Below, piece by piece: positions 8,131 through 21,353 of a DNA stretch of 64,000 bases (its first letter is position 1; every line of letters begins with the position of its first letter). The translations under genes were made by a program, and so were the position numbers. The stretch spans positions 34,712,001 through 34,776,000 of the forward strand of contig NC_091667.1 of the NCBI RefSeq assembly GCF_042453785.1, read 5' to 3'. The notes under the pieces are model-generated. The model saw nothing but the letters and a program-made list of their open reading frames with translations. It was not told where the DNA came from and did no database searches. The DNA is from Malus domestica. Taxonomy: Eukaryota > Streptophyta > Magnoliopsida > Rosales > Rosaceae.

Positions 8131-9558
8131 ATGGAGGCGGCAGCTATAGTTTTATATCCATCACCACCAATTGGCCACTTGATCGCCATGGTAGAGCTAG
8201 GCAAGCTCATACTCACCCACCACCCTTCTCTGTGCATCCACATCCTCATCACCACCCCGCCCTACCGCGCCGACGACACCGCTTCATACATCACCTCCGT
8301 CTCCGCCGCTACCCCTTCCCTCATCTTCCACCACCTCCCCACCATCTCCCTTCCTCCCTCCCTCGCCTCCTCCCGCAACCACGAAACCCTAACCTTCGAA
8401 CTCGTCCCCCTCAACAACCCTTACGTCCACCAAGCCCTCCTCTCCATCTCCCACAGCTTCTCCATCAAAGCTTTTGTCATGGACTTCTTCTGCGCTCTCG
8501 GGCTCTCCGTCGCCGCCAAGCTGAACATCCCCAGCTTCTTCTTCTTCACATCCGGCGCTGCCTTCCTCGCCAGCTTCCTCTACCTCCCCACCATTCACAA
8601 CATCACTGACAAAAGCCTCAAAGACCTAAATACCCTTCTCAACATTCCAGGAGTCCCGCCGATGCCTTCCTCCGATATGGCGAAACCGACTCTTGACCGA
8701 AGCGACAAGGCGTACGAACATTTCCTAGCAAGCTCAAGCCAGTTCCCCAAATCAGCTGGGATCATCGTAAACACGTTTGAATCTCTCGAACCTAGAGCTC
8801 TCAGAGCAATATCGGACGGCCTGTGCTTGGCCGAGAACGTTCCCACGCGGCCGGTCTACCCCATCGGACCGCTGATTGTTTCCCACGGCGGTGGAGGCCG
8901 CGGGGCCGAGTGTTTGAAATGGCTGGACTCACAGCCAAGTGGAAGCGTGGTGTTCCTCTGTTTCGGGAGCTTGGGATTGTTTTCAAAGGAGCAGTTGAAG
9001 GAAATAGCGATTGGGTTGGAGAACAGTGGGCACAGATTTTTGTGGGTGGTCCGTAATCCGCCAGCCCAAAATCAAATTAAGGTGGCTATTACAGACCAGT
9101 CCGATCCGGAATTGAAATCCTTGCTCCCGGACGGGTTCTTGGATCGGACCAAGGACCGGGGGCTCGTCGTCAAGTCGTGGGCCCCGCAAGTGGCGGTGTT
9201 GAATCACGACTCAGTGGGTGGGTTTGTGAGTCATTGCGGGTGGAACTCGGTGTTGGAATCGGTGTGTGCCGGTGTGCCGATTGTGGCTTGGCCGCTCTAC
9301 GCCGAGCAGAGGTTCAATCGAGTGGTTTTGGTGGAGGAGATTAAGATTGCTTTGCCGATGAAGGAGTCAGAAGATGGGTTTGTGAGAGCGCCGGAGGTGG
9401 AGAAGCGAGTTACGGAGTTGATGGAGTCGGAGGAGGGCGAGGTTATGAGGAAGCGTACAAAGGCTATGCAAAACGAAGCCCATGTAGCGTTGGGTGAGAC
9501 CGGGTCGTCTGGGGTTGCATTGACTAAACTACTTCAATTGTGGGGCAAAACTGGTTAG
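8131..9558 (+). CDS. UDP-glycosyltransferase, UGT88-like group E (copy 1)
   Basis: A single-exon gene encodes 475 residues, a normal plant family-1 UGT length. The start is the ATG giving [17 protein letters not shown]; the frame stays open upstream to 8074, but copy 2 and the shared leader support 8131. The expected catalytic His is residue 16 (IGHL) and the partner Asp residue 118 (FVMDFFC). The PSPG donor-binding box spans residues 350-393 ([16 protein letters not shown].. to ..PLYAEQ), with HCGWNS and a final Gln, the residue usually linked to UDP-glucose. The overall pattern resembles Rosaceae anthocyanidin 5,3-O-glucosyltransferase and UGT88 enzymes, so a flavonoid or other phenolic acceptor is likely, but the acceptor cannot be read from sequence. 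The protein is probably cytosolic, with no signal peptide. It is intact and about 90% identical by eye to copy 2. Confidence 0.93.
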
Positions 9559-10821: not shown

Positions 10822-13800
10822 TTTGGCGCCGTCTGTGGGAACGACACTTATTCCCACTCTCTTTAGCTTTGTTAAGCTGGTTTCCACCATTTGTACACTC
10901 TTTTTTTACCAGACATCCTTCTCCAACATGGAGAGCGAAAGAAGCCATAACACGCAGAATGACACCCTTCTTGCACTTGGTGCGAGACAATGAAAGAAGA
11001 AAGGAAAAATGGTTGTTCTTCAAGCTAAAGTCGATGAGTTAGAAGCTCAGAACAACAAGATAACAATGAAGAATGAGGTCCTCCAGAAGCAGTATGAGAA
11101 GCTTTTTGAGATGCTCCATGAAACTAGGTGTACTCAAACACGCAAGCTCGTTACCCCTGTGGACATCAACCATCATCTGGGTGCCCCCCAACATAGAAAG
11201 TCACCTTCCTTCGACATGGGTATCCCTGATGAGGAGCGAGTTAATCATCAAAATATTGATCAACATAAGACTTCTCTCAAACCAGCTGCTTCGACCCAAA
11301 GTAGGAGAAGTGGAGGCAGACACCTCCTTACAGAAGGAGTGGAAGGATCGAAAGCCGTCTTTCGCAACTGTCGAGATTTCCAAAAGCAACGTCGAGACAA
11401 TCCCATCCATGTAAGCTCGAAGATCAATAACTCAAGAGTCTCTGAAAGACTTGGTCCCTTCCCATGTCCCAGGCCGGTTACCAATTTGGGGAAGGGGCAA
11501 CAAGTCCTAGAGAAACACAAAGGTATAGGGGACTCAGAGATGTTCCGACATACATACCTTGGAAATTAGTACGGCGAGTCCAGGGAAAAACCACATGCTC
11601 TTGATCAAACCTTCATACCTTCAAAAGGAGATGGAGATTTACGAAAGAAAGCTCCAGTGGTACATGACTCCATTCAGGACCCTCTTGTCCTACAACTTCT
11701 TAAGGAAGTAAACAAGTTGAAAGCCGAATGACAAGCTGAGATACTTGATTGGAACCAACCTAGGCCTGGCCCTCTTACAAGGAGGATCCTCGACACCCAC
11801 TCCAAGTAAAGACAAAGCAGAAGCTTGGCTTGCAACTCTATACTGGAAATGAAGACCCGATTGAACACCTTAACCTTTTTAAGTCCACCATGGCATACCG
11901 GATGCACACCGACGAAGAGCGATGCCTTCTCTTCCCCTCTACCCTCTATGATGGAGCTCTAAACTGGTATTGCCGTCTTCCACCTGAGACGGTAGACTCA
12001 TTTGAGGAATTGAGGAAACTGTTTGTTTCTCAACACATTTTACAGACCAATCATTTGCACTATGCGGATGACTTGTACACTATTCGCCAGAAGCCAGACG
12101 AGTCATTACGTATGTATGCTGGCCGCTTCAGCCATGAGTATTCCTGTTGTGCCGAGGCAGACGACAAGACTGCTCTCAAAGCCATCACAGCAGGCCTACA
12201 TGACTGTTTCTTCAAGTACATGATCAATGCCAACACTTGGAAGACTTACTCTGAGGTGATGGCACATGCTTACAATCATGCCTCCGCCGAGGCAATGACA
12301 TATCAAGGGAAACCCCTCACAGCCACCCCTTATCAGCAAGTAGAGAGTGGAAGCCATATCCAACCAAATAAGAAGACCTCGACCTTCCAAACGGCAGCGG
12401 TGCCTCCTCTTGCCTTACTTAATACTTTGCAAGTCAATAGACATATCAATCTCAGGGCAAAAGGAAAGATTTCCATCTTCACCAATCTCATTTTAGTAAA
12501 AAGAGTAAGGGACACTACCGCGATAACCAAGGGTATCGCCTTGATAATCCTCGACCCCAGGCAGTTAACACAGTGGGTCAAGCACATGTCAGGACAACCC
12601 CTACCCCGAGGTATGAGGCATACACACCTTTGAACACCACATGCGTGGCCATTTACCCCAGCATAGCACACTTGATACGGAAGCCAAAGCCAAGGCACTC
12701 AGATTACAAGCCCACGAAGAACACGGGCACGTTTTGCTGTTACCACGAGCATAACGGACATGACGGCGAGAAGTGTATCACCTTTCGTGATCATATTAAA
12801 ACTTTGGCACTTGAAGGAAAAATTGATCAATTCCTCTTTCACCTTCCAACGGGTAACCATAACCAACGCCAGATGAATGTGATATATTCCATAAGTGGTG
12901 GCACACCCATATCTAAATCTTCCAACAGGGTTATGAAAAATAGTGAACGAGCTTTAAGATTTGGCCACCAAGTGTTTCACGTGGAAGACATCAGGGGAGG
13001 TAAGTATCAAAAGCCTAACTGGGATCCAATATGTTTCTACCCTGAGGAAGAAAGAGGTATCATCTACCCTCACAACGACCCACTGATCGTGGAAGCTCAT
13101 ATAGCCAACTTTGAAGTACGACGAATCCTGGTAGGCACGGGGGCTTAGGTCAATATGATGTTTGCTGAAGCTTTCAGGGCACTTAATGTAGCTGAACACT
13201 TGCTCGATCGCTCGATTTCCCCTCTGATAAGCTTCTCCGGTGATATCGTGCAACCTTTGGGGAGCATACACTTACCTTTCACCATTGGTACAGACCCTTA
13301 CACAGTTACCATTACCATTAACTTCCTGGTGGTGGTTGATTGCCCAACGGCATACAATGTCATCTTCGGACGCACAGGTATCAATGATCATAAGGCCATG
13401 GTATCCATACATATGTTGTTGATGAAATTTCCAACCCCCTATGGCAATGGTTACATCAAAGGAGATAAACTTAGTGCACGATCATGTTACAACACTTCGG
13501 TCAAGCAACAGCACATGCATGTGCCTAAGGAAACCCTTTCTATACATGACCAAGTCATAAAGACCAGCCCAGACGAAGCCAACTTGGATCTTCACGGTGG
13601 CAACAGTCAACCCGACGAGCCTCGAGATGACTCTTTCACCCAAACTCTAGATTTGATGGACTTGTTTTGACCTTCAAATTCTTGAGTCGGTCTTATACTC
13701 TAGAGGAAACCAGAAAACCCTCCAACCCAGTTCAAGAATAAGCATGTGGAAAGTTACTTCTTCAAAAGAAAAAGTATCTCATATCATCTCTTCTTCATTT

Positions 13801-15628: not shown

Positions 15629-15754
15629 ACTTATTCTACCTCAACAACCAGAAGAAAACTTTCACCGTCTCGAAAATCTCAAGACCAATCATGTCAATAA
15701 CTATTTGTGATAAAAACTTTAGCGGATAATCGTGCTAAACTAAGCCATTCATTT
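15629..15754. repeat. Tandem-repeat unit at the left flank of the hAT insertion
   Basis: The unit starting 'cttattctacctcaacaacc' and ending 'taagccattcattt' recurs to the right of the transposon (17763-17870 and partially to about 18020). The transposon therefore landed inside a pre-existing tandem array of about 125-bp units. Confidence 0.75.
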
Positions 15755-16021
15755 TAGGGCTGGGCACGGGCCGGGCCGAGCCGGGCCGAACCTAAGTTTG
15801 TAGGAACCTGACATTACCCGAAACGGGCCGGGACGGGGCGGGGATTGGATTTTCTTGTATAGGAACCGGACATTACCCGGCCCAGTTAAAACGGGCCGGT
15901 TCGGGCCGGGTCCACGGGTACCCTCTTTTTTTTTTTTTTAACTGCACTGCACAGTTTGAAAACTGCACAGATTGCGATTTGCAACTGCACAATCACAGTG
16001 ACACTGCATTAGAAAGAAATA

Positions 16022-16578
16022 ACAGTACGATTCATGTGCAAGGCATGAAGAGATAACAGCATGCCAATAGAAAATTTCCTCAATTTTTTTTTATCAGCCA
16101 GGTTTCTCTCCAAAGCAACATCAGGTCCATGCTCTGATACATGAAGCATTGCTACCGTTGAACCATATCCAGATTCTAAATTCTTCAAAAGGCGATGAGT
16201 AATTTCCTCAGCTGAGATAACGAGTGGTGCACTAACTAATGATTCATAAAATATAGCAGAAGCTGTTTTTCCCAATTGTTGGCTGACATTAACAACACAT
16301 CTAAGCATTTTAACGAGCACCTCTAATTGAAGAATTAAACCCGCCTCCATGGTAACAAGATGGATGAGATCATCAGAAGTACCTATCAAATATGAATGTG
16401 AGAATTCCAAAATAAAAGGGACAAGCATTAAAAATAAGAAATAATTGGTCCTAAAACAAAAAAATGGAAAGGTTCAGCTAAAGCAACAATACCTTAGATA
16501 CCATTAATAAGCCGCTCAATATTCTCCGAACAACGAAAAAGAGATACTGAGTTCTTTCTGATCAATCCAAAACTACCC
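16022..16578 (-). pseudogene. Captured host gene fragment, nucleoporin Nup160-like (two exons and intron)
   Basis: On the minus strand, 16578-16502 reads GSFGLIRKNSVSLFRCSEN and so on to ERLING. A GT..AG intron (16501-16383) follows, and the frame continues from 16382 as TSDDLIHLVTMEAGL, LEVLVKMLRCVVNVSQQ, AIFYESLVSAPLVISAEEI and MLLSLHALHM near 16022. The splice junction preserves frame, so genomic DNA with its intron was captured. The assignment to the plant Nup160 family rests on my memory of family sequence and is tentative; it is clearly a helical host protein fragment and not transposase. Nothing before or after belongs to the same gene, so it cannot make the full protein. Confidence 0.6.
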
Positions 16579-16604
16579 CTGTAGGAATCCAAAAGCAACA
16601 TAAA

Positions 16605-16735
16605 TGAATCATACATAAATCATTTAGAAATGAATCATACAGAAATCATACATAAATCATTTAGAAATGAATCATACAGAAATCATACAGAATTCATTTT
16701 AAAAACAGAAATCATACAGAAATCATAAAGTCCAC
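16605..16735 (+). repeat. Minisatellite inside the hAT element
   Basis: Interleaved repeats of 'atgaatcatacagaaatcat' and 'acataaatcatttagaa' units occur in three to four imperfect copies. They have no coding meaning. Confidence 0.75.
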
Positions 16736-17044
16736 GGGTCACTTTACCACCATCTGCAGCCACACATACAGAAATCATAAAGTTCAGAGCTTTGCTGAAT
16801 CTAAACTTAATTGAATAAAAACCCAGCAATATACAACATATAAATACATATATAGAATTTTAGATGTTAAATTTGGCAGTACCTGAAATGAAAGTTGGCG
16901 AAGAAGAAGAAGCAGGAAGACCCAGAAAAAGGAAGAGGAAAACAATGGAAAAGCAGAAGCAGAAGCTTTGATTAAACACCATACTTTCTGGGTCTTCTCT
17001 GTCATCACTACCAACCTTTTCACCCTCTACACTCTTCTTCCAGC

Positions 17045-17416
17045 TACAACGACTTCAAATCTATCCCCGGAAACGCCGTGTTCACCCAAACCCGCCTCGA
17101 TTCTTCGTCGTGGGAGCCAAAGCGTTTCAAATCCTCATCCGGGTCTTCTCCCTCCGAAGTTCGAACTCCTCTTCAACCGTCACGCCGCCTCCTCTATTCC
17201 ACAACCACAACAACCAATCTCCCTCCCCGCCACCGCCGAGTCATCATCAACCCGCCCAGCCCTCATTGTCGACTCGCAGGAAAATGGAGTCTGACTCGTC
17301 CACGGCCTCATGGCCTGCGCGGAAGCCGTCCAGCAGAACATCTTCAACCTCGCCAAAGCTCTGGTGATCCAGATCGGCTACCTGGCAGGTTCACAAGCAG
17401 GCGTCGGTGCTCAGGT
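17045..17416 (+). pseudogene. Captured DELLA (GRAS family) gene fragment
   Basis: From 17045 the frame reads YNDFKSIPGNAVFTQTRLDS then KRFKSSSGSSPSE. After a frame change it reads KFELLFNRHAASSIPQ, then SSSTRPALIVDSQENGV. A stop codon follows (tga where the parent has cga, Arg) at about 17292-17294, and the frame goes on as [32 protein letters not shown] to about 17416. The [25 protein letters not shown] and GYLAGSQAG stretches match the region joining the DELLA N-terminal domain to the first leucine-rich part of the GRAS domain in gibberellin-response repressors. It lacks the DELLA motif itself and most of the GRAS domain, so no repressor can be made. The sense orientation could still give a chimeric transcript. 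Confidence 0.82.
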
Positions 17417-17762
17417 AGGAGAGGAGAGAGATGGAGTTCGAGAAGACGATGGAGATTGGAGTGAGTGACTGAATCTGGAAGTGGAAACCTAGACACACGG
17501 GACATCGACTAGGGTAGGAATTAACGATTAAGATTAGATGATAGGGTATCATTTAATCTGGACCGTTCATTATTATTATAAACGGGTCGGTTCGGGGCCC
17601 TGTTTTTCCAAGGATTAGGACCCGCCCCGCCCCGTATTTGACAACGCCCCGGCCCGGCCCGGCCCGTTTTCTTTCTACAATATTTGGAACCGGCCCGTAC
17701 CCGCCCCGAACCTACATTACCCGCCCCGACCCGCGGTTCCTCTACCCGTTTGCCCACCCCTA

Positions 17763-18110
17763 ATTCATTTATTCTACCTCAACAACCAGAAGAAAACTTT
17801 CACCGTCTCGAAAATCTCAAGATCAATCATGTCAATGACTATTTGTAATAAAAACTTTAACAGATCTCAAGACCAATCATGTCAATAACTATTTGTGATA
17901 AAAACTTTAGCCGATAATTGTGCTAAACTAAACCATTCATTTATTCCCGGCTGTACACCAAAAAGATTCAAACTAAGCCATTCATTTATTCCAGGTTGCA
18001 CACCAAAAAGATTCATGTTGTTAGTCACCACATATCTTAAAACGCACGTAAGCCATGGCGTCAACAAATTCTTCGATGACGAACGTAGTGTCAACTTTTT
18101 CCTCTAATGG
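17763..18110. repeat. Continuation of the tandem array right of the hAT insertion
   Basis: 'ttattctacctcaacaacc' to 'ataaaaactttaacag' repeats the left flank. A second partial unit follows (about 17857-17945), then a smaller pair of repeats built on 'cattcatttattcc' with 'caccaaaaagattca' (17934-17975 and 17977-18015). Confidence 0.75.
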
Positions 18111-19928: not shown

Positions 19929-21353
19929 CTAACAGGTTTTGCCCCAGAATTCAAGTAGTTTAGTAAATGCAACCCGAGACGACCCGGTCTCACCCAATGC
20001 TGCATGGGCATCGTTTTGCAAATCCTTTGTACGCTTCCTGATCGACTCGCCCTCCTCCGAGTCCATCAACTCCGTAACTCGCTTCTCCACCTCCGCTGCT
20101 CTCACAAACCCGTCTTCTGACTCGTTCATCGGCATAGCAATCTTAATCTCCTCCACCAAAACCACTCGATTGAATCTCTGCTCCGCGTAGAGCGGCCAAG
20201 CCACAATCGGCACACCGGCACACACCGATTCCAACACCGAGTTCCACCCGCAATGACTCACAAACCCACCCACCGAGTTGTGATTCAACACTGCCACTTG
20301 CGGGGCCCATGACTTGACCACGAGACCCCGACCCTTAGTCCGATCCAAGAACCCGTCCGGAAGCAAAGATTTCAATTCCGGATCGGACTCTTTAATAGCC
20401 AGCCCAATTTGATTTTGGGCTGGAGGATTACGGACCACCCACAAAAATCTGTGCCCACTATTCTCCAACCCAATCGCAATTTCCTTCAACTGCTCCTTTG
20501 AAAACAATCCCAAGCTCCCAAAACAGAGGAACACCACGCTTCCACTTGGCTGTGAGTCCAGCCATTTCAAATACTCGGCCCCGCGGCCTCCACCGCCATG
20601 GGAAATAATCAGCGGTCCGATGGGGTAGACCGGTGGAGTTGGAACGTTCTCCGTCAAGCACAGACCGTCCCATATTGCTCTGAGAACTCTGGGTTCGAGA
20701 GATTCAAACGTGTTTACGATAATCCCAGCTGATTTCGGGAACTGCTTTGAGCTTTCTTGGAAATGTTCATACACTTTGTTGTTTCGTTCAAGAATCGGTT
20801 TCGGCATATCGGAGGAAGGAATCGGCTGGACTCCTGGAATGTTGAGAAGGATATTTAGGTCTTTGAGGCTTTTGTCAGTGATGCTGTGAATGGTGGGGAG
20901 GTAGAGGAAGCAAGCGAGGTTGGCGGCGCTGGATGTGAAGAAGAAGTAGCTGGGGATGTTCAGCTCGGTGGCAATGGGGAGCCCGACAGAGCAGAAGAAG
21001 TCCATGACAAAAGCTTTGATGGAGAAGTTGTGGGAGATGGAGAGGAGGGCTTGGTGGACGTAAGGGTTGTTGAGGAGAAGGACTTCGAAGATTGGGGTTT
21101 CGTGGTTGCGGGAGGGGGAGAGGGAGGGAGGGAGGGAGATGGTGGGGAGGTGGTGGAAAATGAGGGAAGGGTTGGCGGCGGAGACGGAGGTGATGTATGA
21201 GTCGGTGTCGTTGGCACGGTAGGGCGGGGTGGTGATGAGGATGTGGATGCACAGAGAAGGGTGGCGGGTGAGTATGAGCTTGCCTAGCTCTACCATGGAG
21301 ACTAAGTGCCCAATTAGAGGTGATGGATATAAAACTATAGCTGTCGCCTCCAT
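19929..21353 (-). CDS. UDP-glycosyltransferase, UGT88-like group E (copy 2)
   Basis: An intact single-exon gene of 474 residues begins [20 protein letters not shown] and ends LLEFWGKTC. It keeps the catalytic His (IGHL) and Asp (FVMDFFCSVG). The PSPG box runs from [16 protein letters not shown] to PLYAEQ, with HCGWNS and the terminal Gln typical of UDP-glucose users. Roughly nine of ten residues match copy 1, with differences concentrated in the N-terminal acceptor half (for example VGLPIATELN for [10 protein letters not shown]), where acceptor choice is set. The two genes point toward each other about 10 kb apart. Expression may differ because this copy has a lengthened leader and duplicated core promoter. 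A phenolic or flavonoid acceptor is likely from the family but is not determined. Confidence 0.93.
   Translation of the reverse strand: MEATAIVLYPSPLIGHLVSMVELGKLILTRHPSLCIHILITTPPYRANDTDSYITSVSAANPSLIFHHLPTISLPPSLSPSRNHETPIFEVLLLNNPYVHQALLSISHNFSIKAFVMDFFCSVGLPIATELNIPSYFFFTSSAANLACFLYLPTIHSITDKSLKDLNILLNIPGVQPIPSSDMPKPILERNNKVYEHFQESSKQFPKSAGIIVNTFESLEPRVLRAIWDGLCLTENVPTPPVYPIGPLIISHGGGGRGAEYLKWLDSQPSGSVVFLCFGSLGLFSKEQLKEIAIGLENSGHRFLWVVRNPPAQNQIGLAIKESDPELKSLLPDGFLDRTKGRGLVVKSWAPQVAVLNHNSVGGFVSHCGWNSVLESVCAGVPIVAWPLYAEQRFNRVVLVEEIKIAMPMNESEDGFVRAAEVEKRVTELMDSEEGESIRKRTKDLQNDAHAALGETGSSRVAFTKLLEFWGKTC

Follow-up and report, generated by a model that had tools for sequence, protein, structure and literature searches.

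In the window, the 64,000-nucleotide stretch of Malus domestica DNA that we analysed, we found a 2008-bp hAT element, W (C7:34727755-34729762, where C with a number stands for a chromosome), that carries pieces of NUP160, LLG and DELLA genes. The left part of W matches a family of elements that carry NUP160 sequence (N family), and the right part matches another that carries LLG plus DELLA sequence (D family). We consider it probable that W is a non-autonomous Pack-TYPE hAT hybrid whose two parts were joined by template switching in repair and which was then moved by a transposase acting in trans. The features of W and its surroundings are collected in Table 1.

Table 1. Features of W and of the surrounding window (positions within the window; TIR, terminal inverted repeat; TSD, target site duplication).
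Feature	Position	Strand	Remarks
UDP-glycosyltransferase gene	8131-9558	+	convergent with 19929-21353
Retrotransposon gag-like frame	11830-12633		PF03732, E=1e-12; between first UDP-glycosyltransferase gene and W
Left TSD, ATTCATTT	15747-15754	.	all 8 bases as in right copy; paralogues of the empty site at 17901-17946 and at 17970-17991
Whole hAT element W, 2008 bp	15755-17762	+	ends and TSDs; second full copy at C14:22174239-22176246, 99.6%
Left end (TIR and subterminal region), N-family type	15755-16010	+	4/256 differences to N7 and to N5; 80/200 to D14b
Hypothetical spliced frame, 157 aa	16009-16982	-	LLG exon 1 (16982-16883) in phase with NUP160 exon (16382 to stop at 16009); prediction only
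Join, 24 bp, left end to NUP160 piece	16011-16034	.	same in N15
NUP160 fragment: partial exon, intron, partial exon	16035-16598	-	98.9% to C5:28300696; nearest locus C5:28.298-28.310 Mb
Junction filler, 149 bp, NUP160-carrying left part to LLG/DELLA-carrying right part	16599-16747	.	partly repeats adjacent LLG intron
Piece of LLG gene (GPI-anchored protein, LLG1 type): exon 1 and intron 1, with the first few bases of exon 2	16748-16997	-	nearest relative C3:3295542
Spacer, 33 bp, LLG to DELLA piece	16998-17030	.	common to three D copies
DELLA/GRAS fragment	17031-17401	+	92.7% to C16:1620088, 91.1% to C13; alignment
Right end (subterminal region and TIR), D/X11 type	17402-17762	+	last 255 bp differ at 17 sites from D10, 28 from D14a and 29 from D14b
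Right TSD, ATTCATTT	17763-17770	.	identical to left copy
UDP-glycosyltransferase gene	19929-21353	-	convergent with 8131-9558

W begins with TAGGGCTGGGCA at its 5' terminus and closes with TGCCCACCCCTA at its 3' terminus, giving 12-bp TIRs with one mismatch (TAGGGCTGGGCA / TAGGGGTGGGCA), and the TSD ATTCATTT flanks it with an exact 8/8 bases on both sides. A search of the 64-kb window for the TIR with at most one mismatch returned only the two end sites of W, in inverted orientation; shuffled sequence gave a mean of 0.31 sites, with at least two sites in 3 of 100 shuffles. Six-frame translation of both strands gave no Pfam match to a transposase within W. These results bear out the description of this DNA in an earlier note, made from the sequence alone, as a hAT element with matched TIRs, an exact 8-bp TSD and no transposase. 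Two unoccupied versions of the target site lie beside W, each spanning the insertion junction with one copy of the TSD: a local repeat at 17901-17946 (93% over 46 bp) and a shorter stretch at 17970-17991 (22/22 bp).

The element sits between two convergent UDP-glycosyltransferase genes, downstream of both. The gag-like frame in the same interval is followed by two open frames with no Pfam match that reach position 13670, and DNA related to the two UDP-glycosyltransferase genes was also observed on C1 near 30.35 Mb.

The NUP160 piece, which had been named only tentatively as an antisense exon-intron-exon fragment, proved to be well founded: W matches PF17238 (NUP160_helical_2) at E=4e-35, with the matching residues mapping to 16329-16033, and matches the solved NUP160 chain 9sob_R at E=1.5e-17 when the predicted spliced frame is used. 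It differs from the C5 locus at 6 of 564 sites, and is 98% identical to a second copy on C5 and about 80% identical to the locus on C10. Gaps aside, the loci on C5 and C10 align colinearly for about 11 kb, and PF11715 exon matches were found at both of them as well as in the N elements. The second C5 copy (C5:28.378-28.398 Mb) is partial and is interrupted by some 7 kb of other DNA; short inverted matches lie close to its edges. The other NUP160 exon has gained a stop (TCA to TAA) in W and its C14 copy; N7, N5 and N15 lack this stop.

The antisense LLG piece was an addition to what had been recognized before, as was the recombinant structure described below. LLG, which we take to mean LORELEI-like, was identified by way of solved LLG1 and LLG2 chains: joining the three exons of the parental locus gave a protein that matches the LLG1 chain 6a5d at E=1.5e-58, and the same protein had no match in Pfam with an E of 0.1 or less. 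The piece in W is 92% identical to the C3 gene (15 of 245 sites differ) and 88% identical to the C11 gene, and by raw counts all five DELLA-carrying copies are nearer C3 than C11.

The sense-strand DELLA piece was likewise confirmed, at 91-93% DNA identity to two genes with a DELLA domain; its orientation stood as first described, and its limits moved from 17045-17416 to those given in Table 1. The captured stretch begins downstream of the DELLA domain itself, some 190 bp beyond the end of the Pfam match, and extends into the start of the GRAS domain. The C16 and C13 genes have their DELLA domains in open frames 642 and 638 aa long; the C16 gene has PF12041 and PF03514 (DELLA and GRAS) in one frame, and chains of DELLA RGA are matched by the C16 stretch with an E of about 4e-35. 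In W the frame is broken by a 7-bp insertion, and because of this break the GRAS match is sub-threshold (E=0.1); a scan of the full plus strand gave none with an E of 0.1 or less.

Which of the two genes was the DELLA parent is not settled. W differs from the C16 gene at 20 of 364 sites, and raw counts place all five DELLA-carrying copies nearer C16 than C13. In trees, the five element copies cluster together with support of 82/93 in one run and 84 in the other; the first run leaves the parent open and the second would put C13 with the elements, at a weak support of 63. Four DELLA genes were tried as outgroups for these trees and two were used, those on C2 and C15 having no alignable match. 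Across the genome, PF12041 matched 21 times, 6 times in frames longer than 500 aa and 15 times in short scattered frames. When three of the short-frame loci (L045, L046 and L047) were compared with the C16 gene, the first two aligned in part and the third not at all, and none of the three had these hAT ends.

As is characteristic of Pack-TYPE elements, W lacks a transposase and contains fragments of host genes, and its NUP160 and LLG pieces retain introns, with the gene loci present on C5, C3 and C16. The suggestion that the capture was genomic holds for two introns rather than one, and a cDNA origin was rejected on these grounds. The loci proposed as parents were found for NUP160 (C5) and for DELLA (C16 and C13); since the parent loci are still in place, capture was by copying.

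To place W among its relatives, the genome was searched with the first 30 bp of the left end, which occurred 16 times exactly and 114 times with at most three mismatches, the reversed control giving 0 in both cases. We delimited 18 elements of 1.3-3.8 kb each; a further locus (L027) gave a match and was left out of the delimited set. The TSD is an exact 8 bp in 16 of the 18 and has one mismatch in the other two (two of the three D copies), where TSDs were computed for eight elements, read by eye from the flanks for the three D copies, and obtained for seven through a right end picked by TSD match, so that for these seven the TSD criterion is partly circular. The 8-bp TSD and the short TIRs common to family members are features of hAT elements. 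Among the elements examined, the DELLA piece occurs in five and the NUP160 piece in six, and independently inserted elements with TSDs of their own carry both kinds of piece. The expectations that several copies would share this cargo and that the fragments lie inside the element thus both agree with what we observed.

Whole-element six-frame Pfam scans covered 6 of the 18 (W, X11, E5b, E7b, X14 and E11b), and N15 was scanned in part. At about the same place in E7b and E11b, a possible remnant of the hAT dimerisation domain (PF05699) appeared at E=0.0036 and 0.0023, below the Pfam cut-off; X11, E5b and X14 had no Pfam match with an E of 0.05 or less. A genome search with PF05699 found no intact transposase with matching ends among the 150 of 1495 candidates that were scored, and by eye none of these 150 lay within 100 kb of a delimited element. 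For the stretch of the N family that lies past NUP160, Pfam gave a chance-level match alone (DUF3516, E=0.12). A 503-bp segment on C2 (L035:4130-4632, C2:14082129) is 98-99% identical to part of the N elements, and the C2 relative of part of the stretch past NUP160 gave a weak TMEM131-like match (E=0.0048) that is below cut-off.

We compared W with four copies of the N family and three of the D family. Counted from its own first base, W aligns over 1-844 to N7, N5 and N15 at 97-99%, and over 994-2008 to D14a, D14b and D10 at 88-90%; the fourth N copy, N4, is an internal deletion form that is 96% identical to W over 1-663. At the left end, W differs from D14b at 80 of 200 sites and from N7 at 4 of 256. 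The NUP160 sequence is 1122 bp long in N7, N5 and N15 as against 564 bp in W, and the LLG sequence is about 320 bp in the D copies as against 250 bp. Because the donor cargo extends past the breakpoints of W, W is the derived form, and the reverse reading, with W as ancestor of the N and D families, was rejected for the same reason. A single capture of all three genes was also rejected, as NUP160 and LLG/DELLA are found in separate families and diverge unequally from their parents.

The two parts meet at the 149-bp filler, which was found in the two W copies only, with no other genome match at the sensitivity of the search. The filler shares a 19-bp exact match with the adjacent LLG intron (the maximum in 100 dinucleotide shuffles was 12) and contains a 46-bp direct internal repeat. 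Moreover, a base of the LLG intron that is particular to W and its C14 copy recurs in the filler, an indication that the template was local. Comparison of the filler with the other parts of W gave nothing of this kind: shuffles did as well in 100 of 100 cases for the NUP160 side, 64 of 100 for the DELLA piece and 74 of 100 for the right end, and a 10-mer in common with the left end, reached in 7 of 100 shuffles, is not clearly beyond chance. Two other joins in the N family have 5-bp microhomology (TTAAC and AAATA). The full copy of W on C14 differs from that on C7 at 8 of 2008 sites and has a different TSD (ACTAAAAC on C14, ATTCATTT on C7), and these two copies with distinct TSDs demonstrate the mobility expected of a Pack-TYPE element.

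We suggest that these structures arose in the following way. An older line of the D family would have copied one piece of an LLG gene and one piece of a DELLA gene, and a younger line of the N family would separately have copied a piece of the NUP160 gene on chromosome 5. During repair of a break or excision gap in one element, synthesis may then have switched templates, joining an N-type left part to a D-type right part, with the filler at the join partly copied from the neighbouring LLG intron. As the hybrid keeps two usable hAT ends, a transposase supplied from elsewhere could have moved it at least once more, giving rise to the C7 and C14 copies. From these comparisons we infer a mechanism of the repair type, the temporal order of the events and a transposase acting in trans; it is the junction that speaks for template switching, no intermediate having been seen among the elements, and part of the filler could stem from later replication slippage.

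A different route to the hybrid, which we regard as less likely though it deserves weight, is that N-type and D-type insertions lay close together and were co-mobilised by their outer ends, after which an internal deletion removed the inner ends and much of the cargo and repair left the filler. Fusion of neighbours is a published model for the growth of Pack-TYPE elements, and passages of Gisby and Catoni (2022) describe AB and BB groups of fused elements, the parts of which are separated by DNA of unknown origin, and mention similar cases for CACTA and hAT (PMC8903248). The deletion form N4 indicates that such deletions do happen in the N family. However, W has no inner TIR pair and no inner subterminal sequence was seen, the join sits within both gene cargos, and the filler partly matches the LLG intron and has no match elsewhere in the genome at the sensitivity of our search. 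Template switching in repair remains our preferred reading.

It is most likely that the cargo of W is passenger DNA. That W is functional today, through small RNAs homologous to DELLA or through a spliced chimeric LLG-NUP160 transcript of 157 aa, seems very improbable to us, even though cargo and gene loci are 88-99% identical, LLG exon 1 agrees with the NUP160 exon in orientation and splice phase with the frame open in both copies, and splicing of a transposon with gene fragments has a precedent in the account of Tgm-Express1 of soybean (PMC1947982). A phase match would be expected about one time in three, the DELLA piece is frameshifted, and both W copies have the stop in the other NUP160 exon; we regard a functional 157-aa frame as unlikely. 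It would be similarly far-fetched at present to see template switching among gene-carrying hAT elements as an engine of exon shuffling in this genome that put the signal-peptide-like LLG exon in phase upstream of the NUP160 exon and so created a spliced, expressed 157-aa chimera, the transcript of which could also carry antisense DELLA. Finally, the idea that the hybrid results from misassembly or belongs to a segmental duplication, which a repetitive region in a single genome assembly might suggest, was rejected as extremely unlikely, given an identical junction on two chromosomes with different TSDs and 8 differences in 2008 bp, and an unoccupied-site paralogue beside the window copy.

It is still debated how excisive DNA transposons acquire gene fragments and combine them. 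In the present case one genome contains both donor families as well as the parent loci and the precise junction, so that the succession of events can be traced: two separate lines of capture would have been followed by one joining event, with filler that in part matches the cargo, and then by renewed transposition. This set of elements is a good test case for models of template switching and of neighbour fusion, and W shows how such elements can shuffle gene pieces. If small RNAs were made from W, it would provide a defined source with matches to one DELLA, one NUP160 and one LLG gene.

Several known systems resemble W in part. A search of the open-licence literature found no title on Pack-hAT elements in Malus, and neither 'Malus' nor 'apple' occurs in the main text of PMC8903248. 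The Pack-TYPE hAT elements of maize and rice, as described in passages of that paper, are like W non-autonomous, with 8-bp TSDs, hAT ends, gene fragments, related copies and fusions of smaller elements (PMC8903248). W differs from that description in that its three parent loci are traced to separate chromosomes and its fusion point lies within both cargos, with a filler that partly matches one of them. The maize elements Ds2 and Ds-l4 also have hAT ends, 'filler' DNA and occasional gene fragments, including an intron, with gene fragments reported in 11 elements (2 Ds2 and 9 Ds-l4); the passages on Ds do not describe recombination between two gene-carrying lines (PMC3260210).

In animals, passages on Pack-TIRs report hAT as the commonest superfamily (208 of 370) and describe capture junctions that show microhomology and a de novo insertion, for which gap filling or template switching of the FoSTeST type is proposed (PMC8277862); the switch that we infer for W would have taken place between two gene-carrying elements rather than between an element and a gene. 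Tgm-Express1, a soybean CACTA element with five gene fragments, is like W in having several unrelated fragments per element, but according to passages of its description it lies in a gene and is transcribed, whereas W is an intergenic hAT element (PMC1947982). Set beside these systems, W is a well-resolved further case of the known hAT elements that carry gene fragments.
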